64,000 bases of DNA from Prevotella sp. (GTDB taxonomy: Bacteria > Bacteroidota > Bacteroidia > Bacteroidales > Bacteroidaceae): the NCBI GenBank assembly GCA_017561825.1, contig JAFZBK010000004.1:1-64000 (forward strand), written 5' to 3'. This document shows positions 7,079-53,350 of this stretch, one piece after another. Positions within the stretch are counted from its first letter, which is position 1. The number at the start of each line of letters is the position of its first letter. A program made the position numbers and the translations under genes. The notes under the pieces are model-generated. The model worked only from the letters and a program-made list of their open reading frames with translations. It made no database searches and was not told the DNA's origin.

Positions 7079-9985
7079 ATGAAACTGAAAACACTATTTA
7101 CAGCTATTCTGGTATTACTGGGCAGCTGCTCTGTAATGGCCAAAGATTACAAGTTCACCACCGTTCCTGGTGACTTGATGAACACACGTATCTACACCCT
7201 TGACAACGGTCTGACGGTCTATCTATCGGTCAACAAGGAGAAACCGCGCATCCAGACATATATCGCTGTGCGCACTGGTTCCAAGAACGATCCTGCCGAG
7301 ACCACGGGTCTGGCACATTATCTGGAGCACCTGATGTTCAAGGGAACCAAGCAGTTTGGTACAAACAACTACGAAGCTGAAGCTCCGCTGCTCGATAAAA
7401 TCGAGGCATGTTATGAGGAGTATCGTAAGATGACGGATCCCGATCTTCGTAAACAGAAATATCACGAGATCGACAGCATCTCGCAGGAGGCTGCTAAGTA
7501 TTTCATTCCTAACGAATACGACAAGCTGATGTCAGCTATCGGTGCCGAGGGAACGAATGCCTATACAAGCAATGATGTCACCTGCTATACCGAGGATATT
7601 CCTTCGAACGAGGTGGAGAATTGGGCTAAGATCCAATCGGACCGTTTCCAGAATATGGTGATCCGCGGTTTCCATACGGAGCTGGAGGCTGTATATGAGG
7701 AGTATAACATCGGTATCGCACAGGATCAGCGGAAGCTGTGGCAGTCGATCTGCAAGATGCTCTGCCCCACCCACCCCTACGGTACACAGACCACCATCGG
7801 TACACAGGAGCACCTGAAGAACCCCAGTATCACGAACATCAAGAACTATTTCAATAAGTGGTACCGTCCGAACAACGTGGCTATCTGTATGGCAGGCGAC
7901 TTCAACCCGGAAACGGTCATCGCTATCATTGACAAGTATTTCGGCTCATGGAAGCCAGGTGCCGATGTGAAACAGCCCGTGTTCCCCGCCTTGGAACCGA
8001 TTACCGCACCACGCGATACCACCGTGTACGGACTGGAGACTGAGACCATCTGGATGGGTTGGCGCTTCGGAAGGGGCAACACGCTACAAGGTGACACTCT
8101 GCAGGTGATCGAGAACATGCTCAGCAACGGCGTGGCCGGACTTATCGACTTGAACATCAATCAGCAGATGAAAATGCTCGAAGCCTGGGGCGGCGTGGAG
8201 AGAATGCGTGATCACTCTGGCTTCATCCTAGCAGGAACACCGAAGGAAGGACAGACTCTCGACGAGGTGAAGGATCTTCTGCTGGCAGAGATCGAGAACC
8301 TGAAGAACGGTAACTTCTCTGACGACCTGTTACCATCAGTGATCAATAACGCCAAACTGAACTACTACACCTCATTGGAGAACAACGCTTCTCGCGCGAA
8401 CAAATTTGTTCAGACCTTTATCAACGAGATTCCATGGGAGCAGGAAGTGGGCTACCTGAACCGTATCTCCAATATGAAAAAGCAGGAGATCATGGACTTC
8501 GTGAAGCGTCATTTCCGCGACAACTATGTGGTGGTATATAAGCGTCAGGGTGAGGACAAGAACCTGAAGAAGATCGATAAGCCTGCCATCACGCCAATTC
8601 CTACCAACCGCGATCTCATCAGCGACTTCGTGAAGGAAATCCAGAACACGAAGGTGGAACCCATACAGCCGCGTTTCATCGACTTCAAAAACGACCTGAC
8701 CTTTGGAAAGACCAAGAAGAACCTCCCCTATATCTATGTGAAGAATACAGAGAACGGGCGTTTCGTCATGGCCTTTGAGTATAAGTTCGGTGAGGAAGTA
8801 AACCTAAAATACTCATATGCACCCGACTATCTGGAGTATCTGGGCACCGATAAGCTCACCAACGAGCAGATCAAACAGCAGTTCTACAAACTGGCATGTA
8901 ACTATAGTATCAACGTTGGAGCACGCAGCATCAACGTGAGACTCAGCGGACTGAGCGAGAATATGCCACAGGCACTGGCACTGCTCGAGGATGTCATCAA
9001 GAACGCAAAGGTTGACAAGGACGCATGGGAACAGTATATCCAGCTTGTAGAGAAGTCACGTGCCGATCAGAAACTGAATCAGCAGTCGAACTTCTCACGA
9101 CTGGTTAGATATGGTTTCTACGGTCCTTACAATCCCTCAAGGAATATCCTAACGTCTGAGCAATTACGTAATACTGATCCGCAAGAGCTGTTGGATCTGC
9201 TGAAGAACCTTCCGCTGTATGAGCACACCTTATTATATTATGGTCCGATGAGCGAGAAAGAGCTGACTGCCGCTGTTACCAAACAGCACAAGATAGCCAA
9301 GAAACTCCTTCCTGCTCCCGAGGGTCGACGCTATACCTTCGAGCCTACGCCTACCAACGAGGTACTTATCGCTCCCTATGATGCGAAGAACATCTACATG
9401 CGTATGATTCATAACGAGCAACGTCCTTGGCATCCCGAGGAGGCTGCCGTGAAGGCACTCTTCAACGAGTACTATGGCAGTGGTATGAACACCATCGTGT
9501 TCCAGGAGATGCGCGAGGCCCGAGGACTGGCATACAATGCTTATGCCGGTTATGTGGAACCTGATTACAAATGGGAACCTGAGTTGTTCTTCACCCATAT
9601 CATCACACAGAACGACAAGATGATGGACTGCCTGAAACAGTTCAACGTCATTCTCGACACCATTCCACAGAGTGAGGCGGCTTTCCGCATCGCAAAGGAA
9701 GCCTTGACAAAACGCCTGGCTACTGAGCGCACTACGAAGTTCAACCTTATCAATGCGTGGATCAGAGCACAACGTTTAGGTATCGACTACGACATTGATG
9801 AGCGCATCTACAATGCCCTGCCCAACTTGACGTTGCAAGACATCGTTCGCTTCGAGCAGGAACAGATGGCTCACAAGCCCTATCGCTACGTTATCCTCGG
9901 CGACGAGAAAGAGCTTGACATGGATAGCCTCTCCAAGATCGGCACCATCAAGCGCCTCTCCACCGAGGAGATCTTTGGCTATTAA
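7079..9985 (+). CDS. M16 family zinc metallopeptidase, exported
   Basis: 968-residue pitrilysin-like protease with two tandem M16 halves. The inverted zinc motif HYLEH is at 80-84, with the distal glutamate region [10 protein letters not shown] about 120 residues later, so the N-terminal half should be active and the C-terminal half structural. It starts with a signal sequence. LLGSC at 13-17 may be a lipobox, or cleavage may follow VMA. It probably degrades peptides in the periplasm or at the outer membrane. The fumarase gene follows after 28 bases. Confidence 0.92.
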
Positions 9986-40067: not shown

Positions 40068-40098
40068 TTTGTAATTCACAGATTTATATTTATATTTG
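40068..40098 (+). promoter_or_regulatory. Promoter of the channel-CHASE2-caspase operon
   Basis: TTTG (40068-40071), 19-bp spacer, TATATTTG (40091-40098). A 7-bp inverted repeat ACGCATA/TATGCGT (40046-40062) lies just upstream of the -33 element and could be an operator. Confidence 0.7.
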
Positions 40099-40138: not shown

Positions 40139-40951
40139 ATGAACATCAGGAAGAAGATATACGACATTATCGGTCCCGGTTATCTTGAGAATGATGGGAC
40201 ATGGTCGCAGCTGTACCACATGAGTATGTCTGCGGTGATTGCTGTGAGCATCTTCCCATTGATGTTCCGCGAGCATTCGACGTTGTTCCTGTATTTTGAT
40301 ATCATTCCCGCCATCATCTTCGTCATCGACTACATCCTGCGCTGGATCACGGCCGACTATGAGCTAAAGCGAGGGTGGGTATCATTCGTGATCTATCCGT
40401 TCACGTTCATGGCCATTATCGACTTGCTTAGTATCCTGCCAACCATCCACCTGCTGAGTCCTACGTTCAAGGCGGCGCGAATTACCCGTCTGTTGCGCAT
40501 CCTGCGCGTGGTGAAGTTCATCCGCTACTATGAGCCGTTGGAGATCATCATGTCGGTCATCAGACGACAAGGAAGGATCCTGTGGACCGTGTTCTCCTTG
40601 GCGGCATTCTATATCTTCATCACGGCACTCATCATGTTCAATGCCGAGGAAGATATCAATCCTAGTACGGGCGAATACCTGTTCCACACCTTCTTCGATG
40701 CCATCTATTGGTCGGCCTGTACACTGACAACTGTGGGCTATGGCGACATCTATCCTGTATCGCAGATTGGTCGATTCATCAGTATGATCTCCGCCTTTGT
40801 GGGCGTGGCCATCGTGGCACTGCCCTCAGGTATCATCACCGCAGGTTATCTGGATGAGCTGAAAGCCAAACGCGAGCAGAAGTTGGCGAAGAAGATTTCC
40901 AAGAAACAAAAACAGAACCAGATAGAGGAACCTTATGAAGAAATGGATTAG
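40139..40951 (+). CDS. Voltage-gated potassium channel (6TM, KvAP/Kch type)
   Basis: 270 residues with six membrane segments. S4-like helix 114-129 carries regularly spaced arginines (RITRLLRILRVVKFIR). The pore loop has the selectivity filter TTVGYGD at 197-203 and is followed by a typical S6 with a PSG hinge. A short Lys/Glu-rich cytoplasmic tail lacks an RCK or cyclic-nucleotide domain. Forms a tetrameric K+ pore in the inner membrane. First gene of a six-gene operon and overlaps the CHASE2 gene by 17 bases, suggesting coupled production. Confidence 0.93.
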   Translation: MNIRKKIYDIIGPGYLENDGTWSQLYHMSMSAVIAVSIFPLMFREHSTLFLYFDIIPAIIFVIDYILRWITADYELKRGWVSFVIYPFTFMAIIDLLSILPTIHLLSPTFKAARITRLLRILRVVKFIRYYEPLEIIMSVIRRQGRILWTVFSLAAFYIFITALIMFNAEEDINPSTGEYLFHTFFDAIYWSACTLTTVGYGDIYPVSQIGRFISMISAFVGVAIVALPSGIITAGYLDELKAKREQKLAKKISKKQKQNQIEEPYEEMD

Positions 40952-42149
40952 TCATATCAAGCAGTTCATCAAGGATCATATCCATGAGATCTTCCATCAC
41001 GACCATGTCTTTGTGGTTGTGCTGGCATGGGTGATTGCTGCTTTCTGGGCTTTGCTGTTCGTGAATTTCACGATCTTCGATCCTGTGAGTCGTGCGCTGA
41101 GTGAGTTCAAGATGACTGATATCTATTTCACCATCCAGCGTATGGGGCACTCCGTGAAATGGAGCGACGACATCGTGCTGATAGACATCACGGAACAGAC
41201 GAGTCGAGGGGACATCGCAAAGACGCTGGAGCAGTTGGCAGCCTGCGAACCCAAGACCACCATGATGGATATTATCTACGAGAAGGAGGGGGATGACATG
41301 ATCGGCAATGGTGAGCTGATCATGGCCATCGACCAGCTGCCGAATCCCATCCTCTCGTGCAAGCTCATCGCCTCGTCAGAGGAGCAGGGGAAGTTCGTGG
41401 ATGTGCTGAAATCGTTCTTCGAGCCTTTTGGTGAATACACCTGGGCATATAGCAACGTGTTGAAGAGCAACGGTCCTAATGGTACCCTCCGCGATTACAC
41501 TATCTGTCAGAAGGTGGATTCCACCAGTTATTACTCCTTGGCCTATATGGCCGCATGTAAGTATATGGGTAAGGAGCCCACGGCAGAGAAGAACAACAAA
41601 CGCACCATCCTTTATTCGAATGTGGAATTCCCCATTGTCAGATACGACTCGATCATGGAGAACAAAGCACTCATCAAGGGCAGACTGGCCATGGTGGGAA
41701 CGATTACCGAGGAGGCGGATATGCACTTCACGCCTGTGGGGAAGATGGCTGGAATGAAGACCGTGGCGTATGCCGCCCAGACCTATATTGATCATCATGA
41801 GATATCCTCCATGTCGAGCATCATCTCATGGATACTAACCATTATCGTTTGTCTGATTGCCGCCTATGCAGGCTACTTGACCCGAAAGCACTCGCCGCGT
41901 TTCTTCATCTATTGGAACAAGCTGGTGTATCTGGTCATCAGTGTGGTATTTGCATGGATAGGCTTTATCTGTTTCGTGAAACACGACTACGACATCTCGC
42001 TGCTATTGCCGTTGTTGGGAGTGGCCTTCATCGAACGCAGTCGTATCCACTACATGTGGTTCATCGATTACTGTACCATCCATCCCCAATGGAAACGGCT
42101 TTACGCTTTTGCTTCAAAATCACTTTACTTTAAACCGCCAAAGAAATGA
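40935..42149 (+). CDS. CHASE2-domain membrane sensor without output domain
   Basis: 404 residues: one membrane helix (about 25-48), an extracytoplasmic CHASE2 domain (about 60-285, with WSDDIVLIDITEQT and KALIKGRLAMVGTI blocks), then three helices (about 296-315, 329-348, 354-368) and a 35-residue basic tail. CHASE2 is a sensory domain usually joined to a kinase, cyclase or similar unit; none is present here, so any signal must pass to a partner, perhaps the channel or the caspase protein encoded in overlapping genes. Overlaps the next gene by 4 bases (ATGA). Confidence 0.85.
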   Translation: MKKWISHIKQFIKDHIHEIFHHDHVFVVVLAWVIAAFWALLFVNFTIFDPVSRALSEFKMTDIYFTIQRMGHSVKWSDDIVLIDITEQTSRGDIAKTLEQLAACEPKTTMMDIIYEKEGDDMIGNGELIMAIDQLPNPILSCKLIASSEEQGKFVDVLKSFFEPFGEYTWAYSNVLKSNGPNGTLRDYTICQKVDSTSYYSLAYMAACKYMGKEPTAEKNNKRTILYSNVEFPIVRYDSIMENKALIKGRLAMVGTITEEADMHFTPVGKMAGMKTVAYAAQTYIDHHEISSMSSIISWILTIIVCLIAAYAGYLTRKHSPRFFIYWNKLVYLVISVVFAWIGFICFVKHDYDISLLLPLLGVAFIERSRIHYMWFIDYCTIHPQWKRLYAFASKSLYFKPPKK

Positions 42150-43831
42150 TCAAGAGAATCAGTATATTGATAGGTGCTTTGATGGTTGTTGCCGTTGTTT
42201 ATGGACAGTCGGCTGACCAATGGCTCAAGCAGGGCAACGACTATTACGAGAAGCAGCAGTTCAGCAAGGCTGTGGAATGCTATCAGCAAGCAGCCGAGGC
42301 AGGCAGTCAGGAAGGACAGTTCAACCTGGGTTACGCCCTCTATAACGGTGAGGGTATCGACAAGGACTATGCCACGGCGGCCATGTGGTTCAAAAGGGCT
42401 GCCCGTAAAGGGTTTGCCAAGGCACAGTATAACCTGGCCTACTGCTATATGTATGGTCGCGGTGTGCCAATCGACTACGACAAGGCGCTGAAAAACCTGA
42501 CCGATGCCGCGAACAACGGTAACAAGAACGCTCAACTTACATTGGCTGAGTGTTATGAGAAAGGTGTACTGGTGATGCAGGACAAGAAGATGAGTCAGCT
42601 GTGGAAAGACAAGGCGGCAGGTAAGCATACGGCAGCCATTCCGATGCAGGAGGTAGAAGAGGTGACGCCTGTGGTAGCAGCAACACCCCCACCAGCGCCT
42701 AAGCCAACGCCTAAACCCGTAGAGCAACCCGTGGAACAACCTGTTGTGGCACAACAACCACAGCCAGCAGTCACACCACAACCAGCAACAAGTGGTCGTC
42801 CTGTACCGCCCGAAGTACGTATCCTGTTCCCAGAAGATCAGAGTCCTTTCCATACAGATGTGATCAAGCTGCGCTATCAGTTGCTTGCTCAGGGCTTGGA
42901 GGCAAATACGCGTATCACGGTGATGGTGGATGGACAGAAGCAGCCAGCAGATCGTGCTGTGCGTGCTGCGAATACCGTTGAGGTGGATCTGCCCAATCGC
43001 GACTGCACCGTAACGATCTATGCACAGAACGAGAACGGTAACAGCGAACCCGCCAGTATCCGTCTGATTCGCGAAAAGCAGGTGGCTGAGCTGCCGCGAC
43101 TCTTTGCTGTGGCCATAGGCGTGGGCGACTACAATGATCCTGAACTGCCGAAGCTGAAATATACCACGAAGGATGCGCGTGACTTCTCCAAGGTGCTCAG
43201 TACCAAGAAGGATTATCCCTACCAGGACGTGCAGGTGAAGACCATCTGCGACGAGGAGGCTACGCGTGAGGATTTCTACGAGGCTATGGAATGGCTCAAA
43301 CAGGAGTCATCACCCACGGATGTATGTATCTTCTTCTATGCCGGTCATGGCTATCGCGACGAGAAGGACCGCTTCTACTTCATGAACTACGGCAGTAGTA
43401 CATCGAAGCTGTACAACTGCTTCTCGAGTAACGACTTCCGTCAAGCAGTGGAGGACATCAACGGCAAACTCATCGTGTTTGTGGATGCCTGCTATTCAGG
43501 TGCCTTGATGGGTGGCAACCGCTCGGCTGCCAGTAACCATTTCGTGGAACAGCTACGGCGCACCAAGAACGGTATGGTGATGTATGCCTCGAGTGCCAGT
43601 GATACAAAGTCGAAGGAGAACGAGGACTGGAAGAACGGTGCGTTCACCAAAGCCCTGGTGGATGCCTTCAATGGGGCTGCACGTACGGATGGTGATATAG
43701 GTCTATCCACGCAGCAGTTGGATCAGTATCTGTATAAGGCTGTACGTCAGATGACGGATTTCAAGCAGACGCCTATCTTTATGAATCCCAACGGTATGGA
43801 GCCGTTCGAACTGTTTACGTATGAGAAATAA
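42146..43831 (+). CDS. Exported Sel1-repeat caspase-family peptidase
   Basis: 561 residues: signal peptide (about 1-20), Sel1/TPR repeats (about 22-160), a Pro/Gln-rich linker (about 170-220), an Ig-like beta domain (about 222-310) and a C14 caspase fold (about 318-555). The catalytic dyad is visible as His401 in YAGHGY and Cys449 in DACYSG, so the enzyme should be active with Arg/Lys-type (metacaspase-like) or Asp specificity undetermined. Predicted periplasmic. Third gene of the operon. Confidence 0.92.
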   Translation: MIKRISILIGALMVVAVVYGQSADQWLKQGNDYYEKQQFSKAVECYQQAAEAGSQEGQFNLGYALYNGEGIDKDYATAAMWFKRAARKGFAKAQYNLAYCYMYGRGVPIDYDKALKNLTDAANNGNKNAQLTLAECYEKGVLVMQDKKMSQLWKDKAAGKHTAAIPMQEVEEVTPVVAATPPPAPKPTPKPVEQPVEQPVVAQQPQPAVTPQPATSGRPVPPEVRILFPEDQSPFHTDVIKLRYQLLAQGLEANTRITVMVDGQKQPADRAVRAANTVEVDLPNRDCTVTIYAQNENGNSEPASIRLIREKQVAELPRLFAVAIGVGDYNDPELPKLKYTTKDARDFSKVLSTKKDYPYQDVQVKTICDEEATREDFYEAMEWLKQESSPTDVCIFFYAGHGYRDEKDRFYFMNYGSSTSKLYNCFSSNDFRQAVEDINGKLIVFVDACYSGALMGGNRSAASNHFVEQLRRTKNGMVMYASSASDTKSKENEDWKNGAFTKALVDAFNGAARTDGDIGLSTQQLDQYLYKAVRQMTDFKQTPIFMNPNGMEPFELFTYEK

Positions 43832-43858
43832 TCAACAATAATATAGACAAAAAAACGT

Positions 43859-44779
43859 ATGACGATGAAAACGAAGAAATGTAGCGCAATGCGCTTAGTA
43901 ATAGTCTTGTTCGCACTGATGACTGCCTCGGTGGCAAGTGCAGCTGATTACCTGGTATATTCCGTGGTGGGAACGGCTAAGATCTACGAGGGATCCAAGA
44001 CCGTGGCACTGAATGCCCGTAAAACACTCACCTCGACCAGTAAGCTGGTTATTGGTAAGGAGAGTGCCGTAACGGTACTCGACGAGACGAACAGTAAGAT
44101 GTACTCCTTCACTACAGAGGGAACAAACACTGTGGCTGCTCTGCTGAAGGCAGCCAAGGCACCGAAGAGCTTGTCGAAGCAGTATGCAAGCTATATGGTG
44201 AAGCAGCTGTTCTCGAAGGAGAGCAAGAACCTCTCGCACCCCAGTGCCTATATGCAGGCTACGGCCACCTCGTATCGTGCCACAGCCCGCGACTCGTTCC
44301 TGTTGAACCGCTTGGCCAGCATGGCAGAGATGACTGCCTCGGTGGAGAGCAGTCTGATACAACCCAAGAACCTCCTGGAGTCGGATATGGATGTTCGCTT
44401 CGACCTCGTTTCCTGCGAGACAGGCGAGCCCATCAATCCTGAGGTGGATGTGTTCACCAACTGCTATGTAAGAGTGACGAACAGAACGGAGGAGCCTCTC
44501 TTTGTAAACGTGCTGGATATCGATGAGCGCGGTAACAAATACCTGGTGCTGCCCGTGGATGAGGCGGCCACATGTGCCCATCTGCTGGTTCCTGCCGGTT
44601 GTACGGTGGCGTTCAAATCGGAGCCCTTTGAGTTCTCTGAGGCTAACTCTCGTGAGACCTTCCTGCTAGTGGCTACAGAGGAACCCGTTGACTTCAGTAT
44701 CCTGATGAGTCCGATTCGCGGCAATGGCGGTGATCAGATGAAATCAGGCATCTATCGTGTTTCTTATCTGACGAAATAA
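43859..44779 (+). CDS. Exported FecR-like / DUF4384-like protein
   Basis: 306 residues with a signal peptide (cut near ASA, residue 28). The N-terminal 30-105 segment (YSVVGTAKIYEGSKTVALNA, then KLVIGKESAVTVLD) resembles FecR-type ligand domains. The C-terminal 195-300 part (CYVRVTNRTEEPLFVNVLDI, then YLVLP and VPAGCTVAFKSEPF) resembles DUF4384, which is often found with caspase-family proteins. Both domain calls are by eye. Two ATGs (43859, 43865) are possible starts. Its stop abuts the next start. Confidence 0.7.
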   Translation: MTMKTKKCSAMRLVIVLFALMTASVASAADYLVYSVVGTAKIYEGSKTVALNARKTLTSTSKLVIGKESAVTVLDETNSKMYSFTTEGTNTVAALLKAAKAPKSLSKQYASYMVKQLFSKESKNLSHPSAYMQATATSYRATARDSFLLNRLASMAEMTASVESSLIQPKNLLESDMDVRFDLVSCETGEPINPEVDVFTNCYVRVTNRTEEPLFVNVLDIDERGNKYLVLPVDEAATCAHLLVPAGCTVAFKSEPFEFSEANSRETFLLVATEEPVDFSILMSPIRGNGGDQMKSGIYRVSYLTK

Positions 44780-45457
44780 ATGAAAGGAATAGAAATGTTC
44801 AATAGGAAAACACTACGCTTAGCATGCTTCCTGACAGCCTTACTGACAACAGTCTCAGTGGGGGCTCAGGATCGTGATAAGGTGAGTGCCGACACGCTGC
44901 TCTATGAGCAGTTGTGCGCGAATCATGTCACAGAGAACTACCATGCTCCTTACACCGTGAACAAACGGGATCTGCAAGCCACTGCAGAACGCGGCATCTA
45001 TATCGTTAAGGGAAAGTCGTTCCAGGTGAAATCACTCACATCCGACTTCTACGTCCGTGAGAATAAAGGCTCGTATGAACCCATCTTCGACAGGAAGTAT
45101 CCTGTGGAGTCGTTCACGAATATCCTGCTGAACCGCATCAAGCAGAACAAGCTGAAGATCGAGATCACCCAGCACATGTACGGACACACCAAGAAGGTGC
45201 CCGTGCAGAACATGCAGAATATCTACGACCTGCTGGCAAGGAACATGGATATCTACTGTAGTGTGACATCCATCACCAAGGAGAAGATGGAGGCCACATT
45301 GGTGTTCCACCACCGCAAAATGAACTTCATCCACATGTTTATCGTCTCTGTTCCTACCGACGAGCTGTTTGAAGAGGGTGGAATGGTAACGGCTAAGCTC
45401 TACGGGAATATCCCACAGAGCAATATCCGTACGTTGTTTGGAAAATATAAGGAATAA
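44780..45457 (+). CDS. Exported protein of unknown function in the caspase operon
   Basis: 225 residues with a signal peptide (cut near VGA-QD, residue 29). The mature part is mixed alpha/beta and basic (FQVKSLTSDFYVRENKGSY, RYPVESFTN-like region, KMNFIHMFIVSVPTDELF). No family recognised. It begins at the base right after the previous stop, so the two genes are translationally linked. Role is unknown beyond membership in the operon. Confidence 0.75.
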   Translation: MKGIEMFNRKTLRLACFLTALLTTVSVGAQDRDKVSADTLLYEQLCANHVTENYHAPYTVNKRDLQATAERGIYIVKGKSFQVKSLTSDFYVRENKGSYEPIFDRKYPVESFTNILLNRIKQNKLKIEITQHMYGHTKKVPVQNMQNIYDLLARNMDIYCSVTSITKEKMEATLVFHHRKMNFIHMFIVSVPTDELFEEGGMVTAKLYGNIPQSNIRTLFGKYKE

Positions 45458-45469
45458 TATAACATAGAT

Positions 45470-46471
45470 ATGAACATGACTAAGAATGTGATGATAAGGT
45501 CGTTCATGGCGGTTATACTGCTCATGATGACCACCGTGGCTTGGGCAGACGGGGCTACCTTCAAGATCAACGAGGGGGTGGTGGATGCTGCTACGAAGGC
45601 CAAGATGGAGAGTAATGTCACGCTGATGATGTCGCTATTCAAGACGGCTGCCGACGAGCAGCAGAAGAAACTCAAGATGTCGAAGGACAACTTCACACCT
45701 GAGGCTATCAGGGATGTAGAGCAGATGTGGAAGACCAGCGCGATGAGCTGTCCGCCAGTGAGCATTATGAGTCGTTGTCTGAAGACTTCCACGGGCTATC
45801 AGGTGCGTGGTATTCCTGTGGATATGGTGGAGGCCGACCAAGAGGAGTCACGACAGGAGCTGACGGTTGACTTCACCACCGACGGTCGTATATCTGGTGT
45901 GAGCATCTCGATCGACCTGCAGCGCTATGAGGAGATCATGGGACAGAAGGAGAGTGATCTTGACTATGCCCGCAGACAGATCATTGTTGACTTCGTGGAG
46001 AACTTCCGCACGGCGTATAACCGTAAGGATATCGACTTGCTGAACAGTGTGTTCTCTGACAAGGCGCTGATCATCACGGGTAAGATCGTGAAGGAGAAGC
46101 CGAACAGTGACCTCACCCGCATGACACTCAATAATAATAAGGTGGTGTATATCAAGCAGTCGAAAGAGCAGTATATTGCCAATCTCACCCGCGTATTCAA
46201 GAACACGAAGTATATCAACGTGAAGTTCGACGAGATAGAGGTGGTGCAGCACCCGAAGTATGATGATGTGTATGGCGTCACACTGAAGCAGTACTGGCAT
46301 ACCTCTGGCTATAGCGACGAGGGTTATCTGTTCCTGATGATTGACTTCCGTGATGCTGATAACCCATTGATCCAGGTGCGTACCTGGCAGCCGTACAAGA
46401 ATGCGGAAGGACAGGTGGTTACCAAACGTGAGGATGTGTTCCACTTAGGATCGTTCAGGATCGTTAGATAA
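45470..46471 (+). CDS. Exported NTF2-like domain protein in the caspase operon
   Basis: 333 residues: signal peptide (cut near AWA, residue 26), a helical and beta N-terminal region, and a C-terminal cone-shaped NTF2/SnoaL-like domain (about 168-333; IIVDFVENFRTAYNRKDI and SVFSDKALIITGKI are typical first helices and strand). NTF2 folds bind small ligands or peptides; no catalytic residues can be assigned. Last gene of the operon. The frame ends 7 bases before a triple hairpin array. Confidence 0.75.
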   Translation: MNMTKNVMIRSFMAVILLMMTTVAWADGATFKINEGVVDAATKAKMESNVTLMMSLFKTAADEQQKKLKMSKDNFTPEAIRDVEQMWKTSAMSCPPVSIMSRCLKTSTGYQVRGIPVDMVEADQEESRQELTVDFTTDGRISGVSISIDLQRYEEIMGQKESDLDYARRQIIVDFVENFRTAYNRKDIDLLNSVFSDKALIITGKIVKEKPNSDLTRMTLNNNKVVYIKQSKEQYIANLTRVFKNTKYINVKFDEIEVVQHPKYDDVYGVTLKQYWHTSGYSDEGYLFLMIDFRDADNPLIQVRTWQPYKNAEGQVVTKREDVFHLGSFRIVR

Positions 46472-46477
46472 AAACTA

Positions 46478-46537
46478 TTCCCATGTTGGGAACAGATCGT
46501 TCCCAACGTGGGAATAAATAGTTCCCAACGTGGGAAC
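46478..46537. repeat. Array of three 22-bp hairpin units after the caspase operon
   Basis: TTCCCA/TGGGAA hairpins start at 46478, 46500 and 46522, exactly 22 bp apart, with 3-nt loops (TGT, ACG, ACG). The third extends to GTTCCCA/TGGGAAC (46521-46537). It begins 7 bases after the stop codon of the last operon gene. Confidence 0.9.
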
Positions 46538-46550
46538 AAAAACAAACAGT

Positions 46551-46591
46551 AATGGCTCCCATATGTTAAACAAAAACAATTGGGAGCCATT
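46551..46591. terminator. Bidirectional terminator between convergent operons
   Basis: 11-bp perfect stem AATGGCTCCCA/TGGGAGCCATT with a 19-nt loop. T-rich on the plus-strand exit and A-rich on entry, so it can end both the caspase operon and the TPR gene that faces it. Confidence 0.8.
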
Positions 46592-46629
46592 ATTGTTTGC
46601 CTTTGGCTGCTATAGCCAAGAGCCTTTTG

Positions 46630-48009
46630 TTAGAAGGCGAAGCCGATACCCAGACTGAAGCAATGCTGACCGAGGAAGTCCTTCAGTACATTGTTCAGGG
46701 CAAAGCGGTAGTTGTAGGCTACGCGAGCTGCGAAGAAGCTGTACTTCACGCAAAGACCGATCTCTGGATTCACTGACACGGCAGCGTTGAACTTCTGACC
46801 GTCCTCCAAGTCGATATCCTGCACATTGGCCTCCTTATTAGGATAGCCATGCTTATCGGGATGGGAGTTCTTGTCGATGGTCTCATAATCTCCATAGAAG
46901 CCCTTCATGGTAACACCAGGACCGAAGGTGATCCAGATGGGTACCTTTTCCGACTTCACGATATGCTTGGTCCAACCCACACCGAAGTTCACCTCTGGGT
47001 GATCAGGAATGGCATTACCCGAGTTGCTCTGGATGGCACTGAAGCCCTTGGAGTTCACGTTCAGGTGCAGATAGATACCCGCTTTGGTCTGGTTGTAACG
47101 ACCGTAATGGATACCAATGGGCGCTCCATCCATCCACTCGTAGGTAACAACACTGGCGTGCTCTTCCTTGGCGGTGAGGTAGTTGGTGATACTGTTCAGA
47201 CGCTCTGTTGATGTCTTGGCCTCAGGACAGCCGTTCTCAACCACACGTTGATAAAGGGCACGGGCCTTCTCGTACAGACGGTTGTCGAAATAGGCCTCCG
47301 CCTGCTTGAATGTTACGGCACACTCAGAAGCGTAACGCTCATTACACTCCTTGAACCGCTGCACTGCATAGGCATCATACGAGTTGATCTGCACGATGTT
47401 GTTATAGATCTCTGCGGCAGCACTGTAGTCGAGCATACGATACAGGATGTCAGCATCACTGCGCAACTTGATCAGCGAGTCAACCTTGGCGATATTCGCA
47501 TCGTTCTCCTTTTCATCACAATCCGAGCACTGCTTGGCCACGTTGAACTGGTTGAGCGCCTCCTCGTAGTTGGCATTCTGGATCTCACGAACACCCATGT
47601 TACGATGACCGCGATAGCAACCAGCGTCCACCATCGAGTTCGGGTCGTAGATCTTGAACGTGCGCAACTGTTTCGGCTCCAGGTCGAGCGGGATGTCGAG
47701 GGGGTTGAACCCTGGGGCTGTGATGGTGATCACACGACCGCGATACCTTGGACCAGCAGGGAATTCAATGAAATACACGGAATCCGTTCCCTGAATCTCG
47801 GTACTGAAGAGGTCAACCGACTTATCCATCGTTGAAGAGAACTGCAAGGGAATGGTGTGGTTACACCTGATTTCCACAGCAGCCTTCTCACCTTCGCTCG
47901 AATAGACAGCATTGGCTTGTGAGAGATCATCTACTTCGAGTACCCCTTGTGCCCTGACTGCGACTGCTGTCACAACAAGCAGGAGTAATAGGATTGTTTT
48001 CTTTATCAT
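46630..48009 (-). CDS. Exported TPR protein with outer-membrane-type C terminus
   Basis: 459 residues from MIKKTILL: signal peptide (cut near VRA-QG), an N-terminal beta domain (about 22-135) that may be PEGA-like, TPR-type helices (about 140-290; AGCYRGHRNMGVREIQNANY, YAVQRFKECNERYASECAV) and a C-terminal barrel-like region ending in FSLGIGFAF, the aromatic end typical of outer-membrane proteins. It lies 40 bases downstream of the last fimbrillin-like gene and may be cotranscribed. Role unknown. Confidence 0.7.
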   Translation of the reverse strand: MIKKTILLLLLVVTAVAVRAQGVLEVDDLSQANAVYSSEGEKAAVEIRCNHTIPLQFSSTMDKSVDLFSTEIQGTDSVYFIEFPAGPRYRGRVITITAPGFNPLDIPLDLEPKQLRTFKIYDPNSMVDAGCYRGHRNMGVREIQNANYEEALNQFNVAKQCSDCDEKENDANIAKVDSLIKLRSDADILYRMLDYSAAAEIYNNIVQINSYDAYAVQRFKECNERYASECAVTFKQAEAYFDNRLYEKARALYQRVVENGCPEAKTSTERLNSITNYLTAKEEHASVVTYEWMDGAPIGIHYGRYNQTKAGIYLHLNVNSKGFSAIQSNSGNAIPDHPEVNFGVGWTKHIVKSEKVPIWITFGPGVTMKGFYGDYETIDKNSHPDKHGYPNKEANVQDIDLEDGQKFNAAVSVNPEIGLCVKYSFFAARVAYNYRFALNNVLKDFLGQHCFSLGIGFAF

Positions 48010-48048
48010 AACGATATCTTGTATTTGAATTTTCGACATGCACATGGC

Positions 48049-48879
48049 TTAGTAAGTTGGATAAATAATCTTATTGGTAATGAACCCTTTGTCTTCATCA
48101 ACATCTACATAAAATTGTTCGTACGAATAGAAACTATTATTCCAACACCAAAACTCAAATCTGGTGCCAGGCTTAGTGATATAATAGTAGTATTCTCCAG
48201 TATTATACGGAATGGGGCAACTACCTTCCTCTTCTTCTTCGTTGTAAAAGTATGACCAGCTACCCATACTTGAAATATCACTTATGATCTCATCGCTTTC
48301 CCAGTCATAGTAAGACATCCTTACCAATCCCATCTGATGGTCCATTGTGAACGAAACAGAAGCCGTCTCACTATTGTCTATTCCCTTACCAATCATCAAG
48401 TCGCTGGCGTTGAAGTTTGCCAATGTGCTCTGGTCTAACAGAGGCTCCCATGATGAAATGAATGTGCTAAAGAATTCCGTAGGAGCAGCGTCCATATAGG
48501 AATTAATCAAATAATACCAATCATCTTCGTCTTCTTTCTCCACATAGGGATAATAAGCATAATAGGAGCAGTTGGACGAATAGTAAACTTTATTCGATGA
48601 ATCTACCAGATTCCATTTCGTGCCATCGTATTCATAGGCGACATTTTTCTTCATCATATCCCCAGAGGAATTAATGACGAAGACACCAATCTTATCACCG
48701 CTTTCAAAAGAGGTAGTAACATCGTTGACAGTAGCACGCGTGGAAATGGAGGAAGGATGGTTTACCATCACTCGTAGCTCAGGCAATGTTCCTTCTTTCA
48801 CCTGCTCCATTTCGTCTTGGGAACAGGCTGCAAGCAGGATAACTGTCATGCTCATGAAGAGATAATATATCTTTTTCAT
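48049..48879 (-). CDS. Fimbrillin-like lipoprotein 4
   Basis: 276 residues; lipobox LLAAC, then an acidic SQDEMEQ stretch like Bacteroidetes surface-export signals. A maturation-type TR-A site (SISTRATVND) lies about 30 residues after the Cys, as in type V pilins cut by an arginine-specific protease. The rest is beta-rich with SGDKIGVFVIN and SYYAYYPY, both common in FimA/Mfa-type proteins. Unusually rich in Tyr, Asp and Glu. It lacks the I-x-DW ending of its neighbours, so it may be a tip component. Confidence 0.8.
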   Translation of the reverse strand: MKKIYYLFMSMTVILLAACSQDEMEQVKEGTLPELRVMVNHPSSISTRATVNDVTTSFESGDKIGVFVINSSGDMMKKNVAYEYDGTKWNLVDSSNKVYYSSNCSYYAYYPYVEKEDEDDWYYLINSYMDAAPTEFFSTFISSWEPLLDQSTLANFNASDLMIGKGIDNSETASVSFTMDHQMGLVRMSYYDWESDEIISDISSMGSWSYFYNEEEEEGSCPIPYNTGEYYYYITKPGTRFEFWCWNNSFYSYEQFYVDVDEDKGFITNKIIYPTY

Positions 48880-48897
48880 TATTCTCATTTCTTCCTT

Positions 48898-49857
48898 TTA
48901 TTGATGTATCCTCCAGTCGTTTACAGATACAGGATCAAGTGTTTGTCCTTCAGGATTAACAAATCCGTCAACTGTGAGTTCCTTGTTCCTGATGGTGATA
49001 TTGAAGGTGTTCACTGTTCCTGGATCGAAAGGTAATGGGCCATCAGGATCATACTCATATATTCCTCCCATGTAATAGTAGATTGATCCGTCTAATAGGG
49101 TGATGGTAATAGCGAATGACTCGATGGGAGAGGGTAAGAGGATCGCTGAATAGGAAGCATCATACCCAGTAACCGTACTTACCTTGCAGGGAGTAATAGT
49201 CGTTGCTTCATCGTAATCAACATCGAAATAACCATGATTAGGATCAGCATCTTCATCATCATCATCAACGTAAGGCTCTGTGTAGGTTGCCTGATAAAAT
49301 AGTGGGTTTTGGTTAACCATATCTCCTAATTCCACACTACTGATTTCTGCTGCTTCATCACATTTGATGTTGATGTTCACGCGAGCCATCTGATGATAGA
49401 ATTTCAGTTCGGGTGTTGCTGTCTTTCTGATCGTGGTGCTTGGGGCATAGAGGAAGTCGCTGTTGTAGTAATTCTGTTCATCACTTTGGTCTAACTCAAC
49501 AGTAATTGTGCCATCCAAGGAATTAATTTCTTTCTTGGCAAAACTCCAAGCGGTAACGGTTATTGAAGTTCCTTCAAAATCTTCCCAGTAGAACGTGTTG
49601 CTCACATCAATACCTACGGCCTTCGGAGAGCCATCATCGTCAAAAGTGATCTTATATTGCTTGACATCCTCTCCCACCTTCACAAATATATAGTCGTCCT
49701 CAGACCACGTATTGTCTGTGATGGCACGCGTCTCTTGATAACCCATACTAACCTGGAAAGCCAGTTCGTGACGGGTTAAAGAGTCATCTTCCTCTGTTGT
49801 ACAAGCAGAGAAGAATAACGCGCCTATGGCTATGATGAGAAGTTTGCTCAGCTTCAT
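48898..49857 (-). CDS. Fimbrillin-like lipoprotein 3
   Basis: 319 residues; lipobox FFSAC followed by TTEEDDS, and a TR-A site (YQETRAITDN) about 25 residues later. Two-domain beta-sandwich pattern of fimbrillins: N-terminal domain, FYHQMARVNINIKC core motif (this HxMARVN-type motif is common in the family) and a C-terminal strand ending in VNDWRIHQ, a likely donor strand. Surface-exposed, probably a pilus subunit or accessory tip protein. Confidence 0.85.
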   Translation of the reverse strand: MKLSKLLIIAIGALFFSACTTEEDDSLTRHELAFQVSMGYQETRAITDNTWSEDDYIFVKVGEDVKQYKITFDDDGSPKAVGIDVSNTFYWEDFEGTSITVTAWSFAKKEINSLDGTITVELDQSDEQNYYNSDFLYAPSTTIRKTATPELKFYHQMARVNINIKCDEAAEISSVELGDMVNQNPLFYQATYTEPYVDDDDEDADPNHGYFDVDYDEATTITPCKVSTVTGYDASYSAILLPSPIESFAITITLLDGSIYYYMGGIYEYDPDGPLPFDPGTVNTFNITIRNKELTVDGFVNPEGQTLDPVSVNDWRIHQ

Positions 49858-49871
49858 ATCTTGTTTACTGA

Positions 49872-50834
49872 TTACATCCTGTAAGCATCTCCGTCGGTTT
49901 CGCCAACATTATCCCAATCTGTAATAGTGATCGTGTCAATGGTAATATCCGACTTCCTAACCGTTAGGTTATAGGTATAGGCTTTTCCTGCTACAAATTC
50001 CACTTCATTAACTGTGGTTGGAATACTATAGCCATAGCTGGTCTGGTTAGTGGTGCTAATTCTGATAAACAGAGAACCTGCCGAAATTACTTGCGGTATA
50101 ATGATTCCACTCATACCGATAGGTCCTGCTTCTTCTGTCACTGTCAGAGTACCTAAAGAAACAAAAGGCGATGCTGCTTGTCCTTGGCTTTCGAGAGCGG
50201 TTACTATACCTGTCTGAACATTAAAGGTGGCTTCATTCGTACGTGTATATATGGTAACTGTGGCGCCTTGAAGATCACTTTCTAAGATTCCGTCACCCGC
50301 TGAGATGTTGACGTTAATCTTCGTCAGGCAATGCTTGAACTGTAGGGTAACATTGTTGGTGGTTCTATATACAACCTTATCATTAGTAGTAGGAGAACCG
50401 ACCATCAAATCACTGGCTTTGTAATTATCATCCGTACTCTGATCACTTTGTACTGAGAATTGCGCTGATTCATCTGTAACAAGTACACCGTTTTTAGTTG
50501 CATCTAAGGGATAGACGGCATAGATTGTGATACCGTTACCGTTCTGGGGGAAATACTGTGTTGTCGTAGTGGTAAGAGATCCATCTTCTCCGACTTCATA
50601 TTCCAACGGCTGGGTGTAAGATGTGGAGGGCGATGAGGAGTTCTCATTGATATACACAGCCACTTCTGCCCCACTATCAAAGGCTTCTGACTGGATGCCT
50701 TGAGCAGCTCGGGTTTGTACCAACAGGGTGGAATTCAGTTTGATCTCGCACTTCCCAATCTGCTCAAACTCTTCATTACTGCTGCATGCTGCCAATGCTA
50801 CGACAGCGGTTGCAAGAAATATATACTTCTTCAT
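49872..50834 (-). CDS. Fimbrillin-like lipoprotein 2
   Basis: 320 residues; lipobox LAAC then SSNEEFEQ, and a TR-A site (LVQTRAAQGI) about 30 residues on. SGAEVAVYINEN, TIYAVYPLD, SDLMVGSP and LQFKHCLTKINVNISAG are typical fimbrillin landmarks. The C-terminal ITIDTITITDWDNVGE strand fits a donor strand. Similar size and order to the two flanking genes, suggesting duplication followed by divergence. Confidence 0.88.
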   Translation of the reverse strand: MKKYIFLATAVVALAACSSNEEFEQIGKCEIKLNSTLLVQTRAAQGIQSEAFDSGAEVAVYINENSSSPSTSYTQPLEYEVGEDGSLTTTTTQYFPQNGNGITIYAVYPLDATKNGVLVTDESAQFSVQSDQSTDDNYKASDLMVGSPTTNDKVVYRTTNNVTLQFKHCLTKINVNISAGDGILESDLQGATVTIYTRTNEATFNVQTGIVTALESQGQAASPFVSLGTLTVTEEAGPIGMSGIIIPQVISAGSLFIRISTTNQTSYGYSIPTTVNEVEFVAGKAYTYNLTVRKSDITIDTITITDWDNVGETDGDAYRM

Positions 50835-50855
50835 AACGAAAGTTTTTAATGGTGA

Positions 50856-51767
50856 TTAAATGGCATTACCGTCCTCGCCTCCGTTACCGTCTGCCCAGTC
50901 TTCAATGCGGGAATTAACGATCAAAGAGGTCTTGTTGATGGTGATGTCGTATTTGTACTTGTTTCCTGCAACGAACGACTTAGATTTAGCTGCGCTATTC
51001 ACAGTCCACTTGTATTCACCAGCTCCAGGAACACTGAAGGTCAGGATCATACCCGTTGTCGTTGTGGCAGGCAGAAGGATAGCCTCGCTGCTTGTTCCGT
51101 CGGCAGATGTCAGTAAGGTAATATCACCGGTAGCAGCACCTGTGCCAACAACTGCAGCATTGTTAATGATGTCGCAAGTACCGGTAGTCTGCTGACCGCT
51201 AATGGTCACAGTCATATAGGCCAGCTGATCAGAAGTGATACCATCACCAGGTTTCATGGTGAGGGCTATCTTCACCAACTTGTGGTAGAAGTCGAGGGAG
51301 GCCACAGGACTAAGCTTGTTCACGCCGCTTACTGGGGCAGCCACAAGCAGGTCGATAGCCTCTTGATCATCTTGGTTGCTGACATCAATAGAGTAAGTTC
51401 CCGATGCGGCTGAGGCCGTGTAGGGATAGTAGGCAGCAATGGTGAAGTCTTTTCCATCGTAAGGCAGCATGATAGTCTGGTCTTCAGCGGTGGGTAGGAA
51501 TTTACCATCACCTTCTTTCGTTGCGTAGCTTTTATTAATGTACTCCTGCGTACCTTCTTTCAAGGCGAAAACACCGATTTTGTCACCTGCTGTCCATGCA
51601 GCATTGACGGCACGGGTGTTGATAGCGGAAACGATCTGTAGTTCCACAGGTTGTTGGTTCTCCATGTTCTGTTCGTCATCACTGCTACAAGAAGAGAACA
51701 GCACGGGGGTCATCATGGCACAAACGACTGTTGCCAATGAGACGCTTGTCATAAGGTTTCTTTTCAT
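50856..51767 (-). CDS. Fimbrillin-like lipoprotein 1
   Basis: 303 residues from MKRNLMTS; lipobox FSSC then SSDDEQN; TR-A site (INTRAVNAAW) about 25 residues later. AGDKIGVFAL, TIAAYYPYT, LLVAAPV and LDFYHKLVKIALTM match the family, and the end SLIVNSRIEDWADG is a donor-strand candidate. First of four pilin-like genes after DUF5119, so it may be the major shaft subunit. An alternative ATG two codons upstream is possible. Confidence 0.88.
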   Translation of the reverse strand: MKRNLMTSVSLATVVCAMMTPVLFSSCSSDDEQNMENQQPVELQIVSAINTRAVNAAWTAGDKIGVFALKEGTQEYINKSYATKEGDGKFLPTAEDQTIMLPYDGKDFTIAAYYPYTASAASGTYSIDVSNQDDQEAIDLLVAAPVSGVNKLSPVASLDFYHKLVKIALTMKPGDGITSDQLAYMTVTISGQQTTGTCDIINNAAVVGTGAATGDITLLTSADGTSSEAILLPATTTTGMILTFSVPGAGEYKWTVNSAAKSKSFVAGNKYKYDITINKTSLIVNSRIEDWADGNGGEDGNAI

Positions 51768-51830
51768 TTTCATATTGTTTTTGTTTTATTATTGATTATT
51801 CCTAATATTATATTATGGTAATAAAATAGA

Positions 51831-52751
51831 TTATTTTATGTCGTGATGTCCTTCATCAATCACATGCCAGTCAATGATAGAGGTACGAATTCCAGATTCT
51901 GTCTTGATAAAGTAGTCGAGTTCCACCTTTGTTACATCGTCTTTCTTACTGATATTGTCCAGAATGTTCTCAAGATTGATGGTCATGGTAGCCTCCGTTC
52001 CATCACTATAGGTGATATGTAACTCCATAGGTTGTGTGGAGGAATGAATGATATCAATGATGCGGATGGTACAGGTATAGGTAGGTACCGACTGTCCCTG
52101 CAGCTCTTCCTCCTTACCGTTGTAAGGAGTATAGGTAAGGGTGAGAGGTAAAGAAATGATGCTATTATAGTCGGAAACAACCTCTCCGGTAGTAATATCA
52201 ACAGCCTGTGCAATACCATCGATGGATCCCGTAATGCTTGAGATATACTGCTCGTCGCCTGGCCACATATAGATGCTCACTGTTACTTCGTGTACCAACT
52301 GACGCATAACGAGGTTTACATAGGTGGTATCACTACGCATCACCTTGGCTTCTTCGAAGTTGGAAACCATCAGCGTACCTGGAGTACGCAGCAGGGTTCC
52401 ATCTGACTCATTGTCAACCGTGGCCACATTATCTTCTATATGAATACCCTGCGGGTCGTAGTAGGCAAAGACATTGTATGTCTCGGGGTGCATATGGCGA
52501 AAGATATTGGTAACACCTTCCGCTAAATATGTATCCTCATTCAGCAAGAGAAAATAGTTGTCTGAGGGTGCTACACCCAGATCAGTACGACTCCAGTCGG
52601 TATTAACAATCATGGTTCCCAGTTTCCACTCATCGGGATTGTAGTATTCAGGATCGTCTTCAGGCAATAAAAGGAGCCTATCTTTGACGCATGATGCCAA
52701 GAGGAGCATCACGACCATGCTGGTGAATATGTAAAAGATATGCCTTTTCAT
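51831..52751 (-). CDS. DUF5119 family lipoprotein (FimB/Mfa2-type anchor candidate)
   Basis: 306 residues from MKRHIFYIF; lipobox LLASC then VKDRLLLLPEDDP. The body has strands typical of DUF5119/fimbrillin-anchor proteins (YNVFAYYD, YVNLVMRQLVHEVTVSIYM) and ends SIIDWHVIDEG, like the pilin-like genes. In related clusters the gene before the pilins encodes the outer-membrane anchor and length terminator; that role is inferred. The ATG overlaps the TAA of the DUF3575 gene by one base. Confidence 0.82.
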   Translation of the reverse strand: MKRHIFYIFTSMVVMLLLASCVKDRLLLLPEDDPEYYNPDEWKLGTMIVNTDWSRTDLGVAPSDNYFLLLNEDTYLAEGVTNIFRHMHPETYNVFAYYDPQGIHIEDNVATVDNESDGTLLRTPGTLMVSNFEEAKVMRSDTTYVNLVMRQLVHEVTVSIYMWPGDEQYISSITGSIDGIAQAVDITTGEVVSDYNSIISLPLTLTYTPYNGKEEELQGQSVPTYTCTIRIIDIIHSSTQPMELHITYSDGTEATMTINLENILDNISKKDDVTKVELDYFIKTESGIRTSIIDWHVIDEGHHDIK

Positions 52752-53350
52752 TACTTTGTCTTTTTTAAGAAATCCCACACAATAGCCACCGACAGCTTAT
52801 TGATGCCGATGTAGTTCGAATTATCGTCGCCTGTCTTGTAGCGCACGCCGTCAATAGTCTTGTACTTCTCAATGGTTGCATGCGTAAAACCGAGTCCACC
52901 ACCAAAGTCAATAAAGAACTTCTTGTTGTGCAGACGAAGACGGTAACCTGCTGTGATACCACCTCCCATATAGTCGCCCTGACGACCTCTTTCGGTAAGT
53001 CCGAAATTATACTGTCCGCCATGTACCATGATACCTGCGTACCAAGGACGCTGGGTTGACATATATCCCATATAGTGACGGATCTCACCGGCAAACTCCT
53101 TCTGGGCGAAACGGTGGCTATTGTCACTCCAGCTCCAGCGGGTATAGGTAGCATTCGCCAGAACGCTCCATTCCTTATTCAACTGCCACTCAATACCTAC
53201 ATCAGGGGTAAGGGTGGCCCAACGAAGTATATTAGCTCGCAAAAGAATGGATTCTTCCTTATCTTGAGCACACACATAACAACAACACAACGTCATAAAC
53301 GCTGTGAGCAAAATACCTTTGCATATGTGCCGTTTTACTATTTTATCCAC
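52751..53350 (-). CDS. DUF3575 family protein of the fimbrial operon
   Basis: 199 residues with a signal peptide (cut near CAQ-DK). The mature part reads as a small outer-membrane-type beta barrel: LLRANILRWATLTPDVGIEW, GGQYNFGL, GGGITAGYRL and FFIDFGGGLGFT are alternating strands. DUF3575 genes usually head fimbrillin clusters in Bacteroidales; function unknown. First gene of the operon. Confidence 0.85.
   Translation of the reverse strand: MDKIVKRHICKGILLTAFMTLCCCYVCAQDKEESILLRANILRWATLTPDVGIEWQLNKEWSVLANATYTRWSWSDNSHRFAQKEFAGEIRHYMGYMSTQRPWYAGIMVHGGQYNFGLTERGRQGDYMGGGITAGYRLRLHNKKFFIDFGGGLGFTHATIEKYKTIDGVRYKTGDDNSNYIGINKLSVAIVWDFLKKTK

Follow-up and report, generated by a model that had tools for sequence, protein, structure and literature searches.

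Results

Gene content and organization of the locus

In the 64,000-nucleotide stretch of Prevotella sp. DNA analyzed here (hereafter the window; contig JAFZBK010000004.1 of assembly GCA_017561825.1, positions 1 to 64,000), six plus-strand genes form a compact, conserved operon that combines a predicted K+ channel, a CHASE2 protein, a Sel1-repeat caspase with an export-type N-terminus, a FecR-like protein and two proteins named P225 and P333 after their lengths (Table 1). A recount of the open reading frames (ORFs) recovered the six genes, their overlaps and the catalytic His and Cys listed in the original prediction, which had been made from the sequence letters; the tight run that it claimed was reproduced exactly, with intergenic gaps of -17, -4, +27, 0 and +12 bases in gene order. 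By hydropathy, the products of genes 3, 4, 5 and 6 have one hydrophobic stretch apiece, at the N-terminus, which we take for a putative export signal. The signal peptide announced for the caspase is thus a prediction from hydropathy.

A single promoter had been placed ahead of the operon. Indeed, the channel gene is preceded by a Bacteroides-type promoter motif, and none of this type was found inside the operon on the operon strand; its -7 consensus is that of the PubMed Central (PMC) paper PMC12632263. Nine such motifs (TTTG-N18-22-TAnnTTTG) occur in the whole window, where shuffling predicts 0.56; a generic sigma-70 scan stayed close to background (15 found, 10.6 ± 2.7 expected); it is the Bacteroides-type motif, rather than the generic scan, that provides useful promoter evidence. 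In the window sequence, considered alone, terminator-like repeats occupy 46475-46620, and the only plus-strand one lies at 46602-46620. No Rfam family matched between 39000 and 47000 at gathering scores.

Table 1. Features of the caspase operon and of its convergent neighbour in the window
Feature	Coordinates	Strand	Basis or remark
Bacteroides-type promoter motif, TTTG-N19-TATATTTG	40068..40098	+	40 bases 5' of the channel ATG
Gene 1, K+ channel (predicted)	40139..40951	+	Ion_trans; ORF call
Gene 2, CHASE2 protein	40935..42149	+	Pfam CHASE2; ORF call
Gene 3, Sel1-caspase, export-type N-terminus	42146..43831	+	Peptidase_C14, Sel1, His401/Cys449
Gene 4, FecR-like protein, export-type N-terminus	43859..44779	+	Label by eye; DUF4384-like C-terminus below Pfam cut-off
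Gene 5, P225 (225 residues), cassette protein, export-type N-terminus	44780..45457	+	No Pfam family above cut-off
Gene 6, P333 (333 residues), cassette protein, export-type N-terminus	45470..46471	+	NTF2-like C-terminus; Cds6_C below cut-off
Gene 7, OMP471	46630..48045	-	TPR matches below cut-off; convergent with genes 1-6 in the window
Type V pilus operon (four Mfa_like_1, Mfa2-type anchor, DUF3575)	48049..53350	-	Pfam; associated neighbour, not claimed as part

The operon is conserved as a unit between species

A scan of GTDB genome contigs revealed eight further loci in assemblies of Prevotella, Prevotellaceae and Bacteroidaceae; many of these relatives are ruminant-derived, the titles of five naming the omasum of sheep, goat or yak. 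All six genes occur in the same order in the eight loci, at 55-96% identity per protein (71-96% for the caspase). With start codons estimated, the channel and CHASE2 genes overlap in all eight (4-20 bases) and the CHASE2 and caspase genes in six (1-4 bases). A ninth locus, G100, from another genus, keeps genes 2-6, and the channel is absent from the stretch fetched. The other loci share none of the seven ORFs that precede the operon within 8.2 kb in the window; upstream neighbours are shared by L064 and L070 and by L066 and L067, and L063 has no upstream flank. Because the order recurs in eight of eight loci with its overlaps kept while the window's upstream ORFs are not shared, the gene run is not a product of chance. 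The check across related genomes proposed with the original prediction thus found the neighbours conserved together. Among the matches listed in a sample of 151 family genomes, most of the caspase is covered only in the window's own genome and G100, so that the operon is uncommon across the family as a whole; among the loci compared, the channel was confined to those of window type.

A TAnnTTTG element lies at most 160 bases 5' of the first gene in 9/9 loci, a count for a short element made without a shuffle control, and the full motif stands at the same position only in the window and L063; in L068 it is farther upstream. In L068, a tRNA-like sequence (by eye, about 7900-7987) lies directly 5' of the channel gene.

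A seventh gene, OMP471, had been overlooked in the original prediction together with the convergent pilus operon. P333 has beside it a relative of OMP471, for which we infer an outer-membrane location, in each of the nine other loci; the two genes point the same way in L064, L065 and G100, and the remaining six loci have the convergent arrangement of the window.

Predicted properties of the operon proteins

Families were called for the window proteins with Pfam at its curated cut-offs. The channel matches Ion_trans above cut-off (99 bits), with K/R at every third residue of S4 (111, 114, 117, 120, 123, 126 and 129) and the filter TVGYGD at 198-203; hydropathy marked five segments, S4 not being one of them. 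Domain, S4 charges and filter are those of a voltage-gated K+ channel, whose gating and conduction are predicted, and it is from these motifs that membrane-potential sensing might be proposed.

The CHASE2 protein (404 residues) matches CHASE2 at 60.9 bits against a cut-off of 26.3. Its hydrophobic segments lie at 25-43, 290-308 and 330-348; the CHASE2 domain is thus membrane-flanked. CHASE2 is the sole Pfam family above cut-off across the 404 residues, in agreement with the output-less sensor described originally, and no cytoplasmic output domain of the kind carried by kinase- or cyclase-output CHASE2 receptors was found with Pfam. The CHASE2 profile gave no match among solved structures.

The caspase carries a C14/orthocaspase domain (Peptidase_C14, 81.9 bits, cut-off 21.4) and, as had been noticed from the letters, Sel1 repeats (78.5 bits, above cut-off). 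The dyad is formed by His401 in AGHG (399-402) and Cys449 in DACYSG (447-452), and both residues, present as claimed, are invariant across the nine rows of the caspase alignment. The proposed Ig-like domain was not recovered, the segment having no Ig-type Pfam match. Compared with solved structures, the protein resembles Sel1/TPR proteins and, in its caspase part, metacaspase-1 (7qp0, E 0.0035). Neither a lipobox nor a type IX tail was seen by eye. Orthocaspases cut after positively charged residues (PMC6426788), and by analogy the window caspase is expected to cleave after Arg or Lys.

The FecR/DUF4384-like description of gene 4 stood in part, as a weak DUF4384 likeness and a resemblance to FecR by eye; both fell below Pfam thresholds and were rejected as named families. 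Six of 41 gene-4 relatives match DUF4384 at E ≤ 0.01, so a distant kinship is possible. Against solved structures, the FecR-like profile retrieved mostly TPR proteins, which match TPR tails on some of its rows. No Pfam family reached its cut-off for genes 5 and 6, and NCBIfam gave no family for genes 4-6. Among P333 relatives, 43/58 match Cds6_C (NTF2-like) at E ≤ 0.01; the P333 and P225 profiles had three and four weak, unrelated matches, respectively, to solved structures.

CHASE2 and a FecR-like partner recur in Bacteroidia

CHASE2 is present in 13/295 order genomes and 31/295 class genomes (own genome counted). Neighbourhoods were fetched for 41 of the 46 non-window CHASE2 matches, leaving out G731, G888, G799, G962 and the second G970 match. 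A FecR-like gene lies within two ORFs of CHASE2 in 30/41 loci, compared with 0/59 P333 loci without CHASE2 (Fisher p 1.1e-16), and C14 alone is present in 11/41 loci compared with 2/59 controls (L120 and L157; p 1.4e-3). Both p-values are overstated because the 41 loci contain close kin, the controls were chosen for their P333 genes and the pool itself served to iterate the FecR profile. When CHAT genes are included, a C14 or CHAT gene is found within five ORFs in 14/41 loci. The linked caspases vary in their additional parts (Sel1, WD40, TPR with Glucodextran_B, and DUF4384 below cut-off), and CHASE2, caspase and FecR-like genes occur without the cassette described below in L169 and L197, both from one other genus. 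From these gene neighbourhoods, CHASE2 with a FecR-like, putatively exported partner is a widespread Bacteroidia pair. In L202 (8080-13338), from the window's genus, CHASE2, FecR-like and exported TPR-CHAT genes stand in a row.

P225 and P333 belong to a broad cassette

The 225- and 333-residue proteins had been listed among the exported partners of the caspase; they are not private to the operon and proved to be members of a broad Bacteroidales cassette. P333 relatives, fused forms included, occur in 34/295 order genomes and 117/399 family genomes (own genome counted). In neighbourhoods picked from the top-scoring matches, and thus not at random, P225/P333 relatives elsewhere follow one of three kinds of gene: a tubulin-like one accompanied by a MORN-type protein, one for a kinase, or one for a TPR/Sel1 protein. 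These input families were named by Pfam (Tubulin_2 and others), and the Tubulin_2 protein we take to be FtsZl1. The labels LPP20, FecR-like, OMP and ZNMORN were given by eye, and the LPP20-labelled protein has no Pfam family. Of the 59 P333 loci without CHASE2, 46 contain P225, 41 the LPP20-labelled protein and 17 a match to the OMP profile; an OMP471 relative lies downstream of P333, co-directional, in 13 TPR-type loci.

By locus, the 58 full-length P333 proteins comprise 26 Tubulin_2, 14 TPR/Sel1, eight window-type and seven kinase cases and three with none, a label being given for any match within the locus and being weak for L184 (TPR group) and for L116 and L107 (kinase group). In neighbourhood counts L064 and L065 appear to lack P333, and L064 also the FecR-like gene, an artefact of choosing the longest non-overlapping ORFs. 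Window-type P333 forms one clade (SH-aLRT 100) nested in a 21-row set with TPR-type rows (92), in a tree of a quick kind with several long branches from which relatives of 438-635 residues were excluded.

Several cassette loci showed peculiarities of their own. Tandem tubulin-like genes (774 and 1032 residues) lie 5' of the cassette in L160 and L161, and PP2C lies beside the kinase in the kinase-type loci L152 and L167. The 438-635-residue proteins (L111-L115, L117-L120) have a P333-type C-terminal part, with a PEGA-profile gene adjacent or one gene off in 7/9. In L120 (3527-12072), a single-domain caspase with an export-type N-terminus is encoded directly 3' of the PEGA-P333 pair, followed by genes that, by eye, resemble sigma-factor and anti-sigma-factor genes.

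A type V pilus operon converges on the caspase operon

The pilus operon and OMP471 (46630-53350, minus strand) run toward the caspase operon with OMP471 last, its start codon lying 3-39 bases after the last fimbrillin gene. Fimbrillin genes adjoin the operon in 8/9 channel-bearing loci (L068 is cut by the contig end); L065 has none there, and G100 has none within the stretch fetched. In other cassette loci, no fimbrillin was found with the fimbrillin profiles. The own genome, 88% complete, has six fimbrillin matches in two places, here and on contig C35, each beside P333 and an OMP- or PEGA-type gene. The C35 locus (L116, 3021-9436) contains the genome's second P333 relative, of WG-repeat type, beside a PEGA-profile gene that has no Pfam match. 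Two fimbrillin-domain proteins are encoded there, one of 1155 residues with LRR_5, BACON and Peptidase_M64, and a kinase gene lies nearby on the opposite strand.

Discussion

Our analysis describes an operon that is, judged from its parts, a composite of separable units: a channel, a CHASE2-FecR pair with a caspase, and an exported cassette. We consider it about an even bet (probability roughly 0.5) that it acts as a composite envelope-sensing and proteolysis operon. Signalling in the membrane or periplasm leading to proteolysis is the natural inference, given the conserved operon, the output-less CHASE2 protein, the exported caspase with its intact dyad and the exported partners. The envelope-sensing and periplasmic-proteolysis part of the original prediction therefore fits both composition and conservation; its membrane-potential part derives from the channel motifs only, and its cell-death or defence part found no support. 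In the proposed mechanism, the CHASE2 domain would read a periplasmic cue, either a ligand or the state of the wall or envelope. Because the protein has no cytoplasmic output domain, it would signal inside the membrane and periplasm, via the FecR-like protein, to the caspase, which would then cleave after Arg or Lys. The P225-P333-OMP cassette might be the outer-membrane-side target or output that remodels the surface, and could be an interchangeable output: in other Bacteroidales the gene ahead of it encodes a tubulin-like GTPase, a kinase or a TPR protein. The channel might couple the response to membrane potential, or be opened by it.

Several observations, besides the overstated p-values mentioned above, weigh against this reading. 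For 27/41 CHASE2 loci, the five-ORF neighbourhood contains neither a C14 nor a CHAT gene, and none of the 41 non-window loci contains P225, P333, OMP or a window-type channel. One linked caspase in each of L190, L193 and L206 does not show the customary GHG or D[AS]C pattern. In 41/399 family genomes the FecR-like protein has short N-terminal matches, most of them without a CHASE2 check, so this domain is probably not tied to CHASE2. Moreover, none of the 41 gene-4 relatives matches the FecR Pfam model at E ≤ 0.01, and gene 4 itself stays below the DUF4384 cut-off in the window (15.9 bits versus 27). For the channel, both role and direction are conjectural.

The separability of the modules in other genomes, and the missing channel in the stretch fetched from G100, would also suit a loose operon in which the channel, the CHASE2-caspase-FecR genes and P225-P333 are co-transcribed yet act separately. 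This is unlikely in our view, as the channel-CHASE2 overlap persists in 8/8 loci and the six genes stay together even where single proteins have diverged to 55% identity. The fimbrillin genes next to the operon raise a different idea, namely that pilins encoded in the neighbouring type V pilus operon would be substrates which the exported caspase matures, at a time set by the rest of its own operon. Gingipain matures pilins in Porphyromonas, and the window caspase presumably shares clan CD kinship with the type V pilin proteases clostripain and gingipain. The fimbrillins adjoin nearly all channel-bearing loci while the window's upstream neighbours are unshared, the own genome's fimbrillin matches are confined to two P333-bearing places, and TR[AS] occurs within the first 90 residues of 29/29 fimbrillin-like proteins (channel-bearing loci and L116), a motif counted without a control set that would fit any Arg-specific protease. 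However, a surface clostripain has been named as the pilin protease of Bacteroides (PMC12632263), and the own genome also encodes a clostripain-type (C11) protein, lipoprotein-like by eye. That clostripain is, like the window caspase, an exported cysteine protease beside Mfa-like pilins; the caspase differs in its family (C14), its Sel1 arm and the lack of any visible surface anchor, and its cleavage is here a proposal. Since the C11 protein is present and clostripain is the named pilin protease, we keep pilin maturation as a rival only, and a rather improbable one; as the main function it is weakened further by the operons of L065 and, in the fetched stretch, G100, which lack fimbrillins.

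A cell-death or anti-phage system, in which the channel or CHASE2 detects envelope damage or depolarization and the caspase kills the cell, seems very unlikely. Caspases are listed among the effectors of bacterial conflict systems (PMC8195603), the generic PADLOC caspase model scores 38.9 bits on gene 3, and the operon is patchy in the family sample. Against this, PADLOC recognized no second component except a weak PtuA (14.2 bits) on the same protein and nothing in the other five, and the export-type N-terminus would put cytoplasmic targets out of the caspase's reach. No plasmid match appeared in a search in near mode, and no relative was seen on viral contigs, where close relatives were sought; the flanks comprise genes that by eye resemble rpsO and typA, and the pilus operon. 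The seven-gene set of sensor, channel and cassette is also kept together between species. We regard cell death as less probable than a routine regulation of the surface, and the evidence points to a mix-and-match system of envelope sensing and remodelling, not to a proven suicide or defence system.

Parts of the envelope-sensing and proteolysis operon have relatives in the literature. Trichodesmium erythraeum has a caspase-CHASE2 fusion protein (PMC3501461, PMC2853523), which, like the window operon, links a CHASE2 sensor with a Peptidase C14 caspase. The fusion is one membrane protein with its caspase predicted to be cytoplasmic, whereas in the window sensor and caspase are encoded separately, the caspase is exported, and a channel, a FecR-like partner and the P225-P333-OMP cassette accompany them. 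In Burkholderia, the BiofilmReg operon comprises a response regulator, a LysM-FecR protein, a CHASE2 histidine kinase and a DUF4136 protein (PMC5192318) and, like the window, sets an exported FecR-domain (here FecR-like) protein beside a CHASE2 membrane sensor. Its CHASE2 protein carries a kinase and adjoins a response regulator; that of the window has no output domain and adjoins a protease, and Pfam found neither histidine kinase nor response regulator in the six window proteins. FtsZl1 tubulin-like systems (PMC2875224) are related through the cassette, as elsewhere in Bacteroidales a Tubulin_2 gene precedes P225/P333 relatives. The available part of that paper describes vWA proteins, kinases and OmpA-type proteins and does not mention MORN; window-type loci differ in having no tubulin-like gene (0/10). 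In the open-licence PMC literature, we found no paper that brings together CHASE2, an exported caspase or protease and a FecR-like partner in one operon, nor one on an exchangeable P225-P333-OMP cassette; P225 and P333 have no established names by which a search could find them. CHASE2-caspase fusions and FecR-CHASE2 kinase operons being known, the CHASE2-FecR-exported protease operon appears to be a new variant.

To conclude, a broader and more tentative view, which we hold possible though somewhat doubtful, is that Bacteroidota use one exported outer-envelope cassette (P225, P333, OMP/PEGA and often a further exported protein of about 260 residues) with interchangeable inputs. In Prevotella relatives the input would be a channel with a CHASE2-FecR pair controlling a periplasmic caspase, whose proteolysis would be a surface-shaping signalling output and not a death effector; the alternative inputs would be a tubulin-like GTPase, a kinase or a TPR protein. 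Common exported partners would then link tubulin-like GTPases, kinases and caspases. The roles of prokaryotic caspases are largely open outside cyanobacterial and defence settings, and the operon names concrete partners for one of them: the CHASE2-FecR pair, recurrent in Bacteroidia and with a caspase or CHAT gene nearby in about one third of the loci found, and the cassette that tubulin-like and kinase loci carry as well. An exported caspase of obscure role is thereby placed in a testable pathway with a sensor, a protease and a candidate output. If this is true, caspase proteolysis may shape the cell surface of these bacteria, for example their type V pili.

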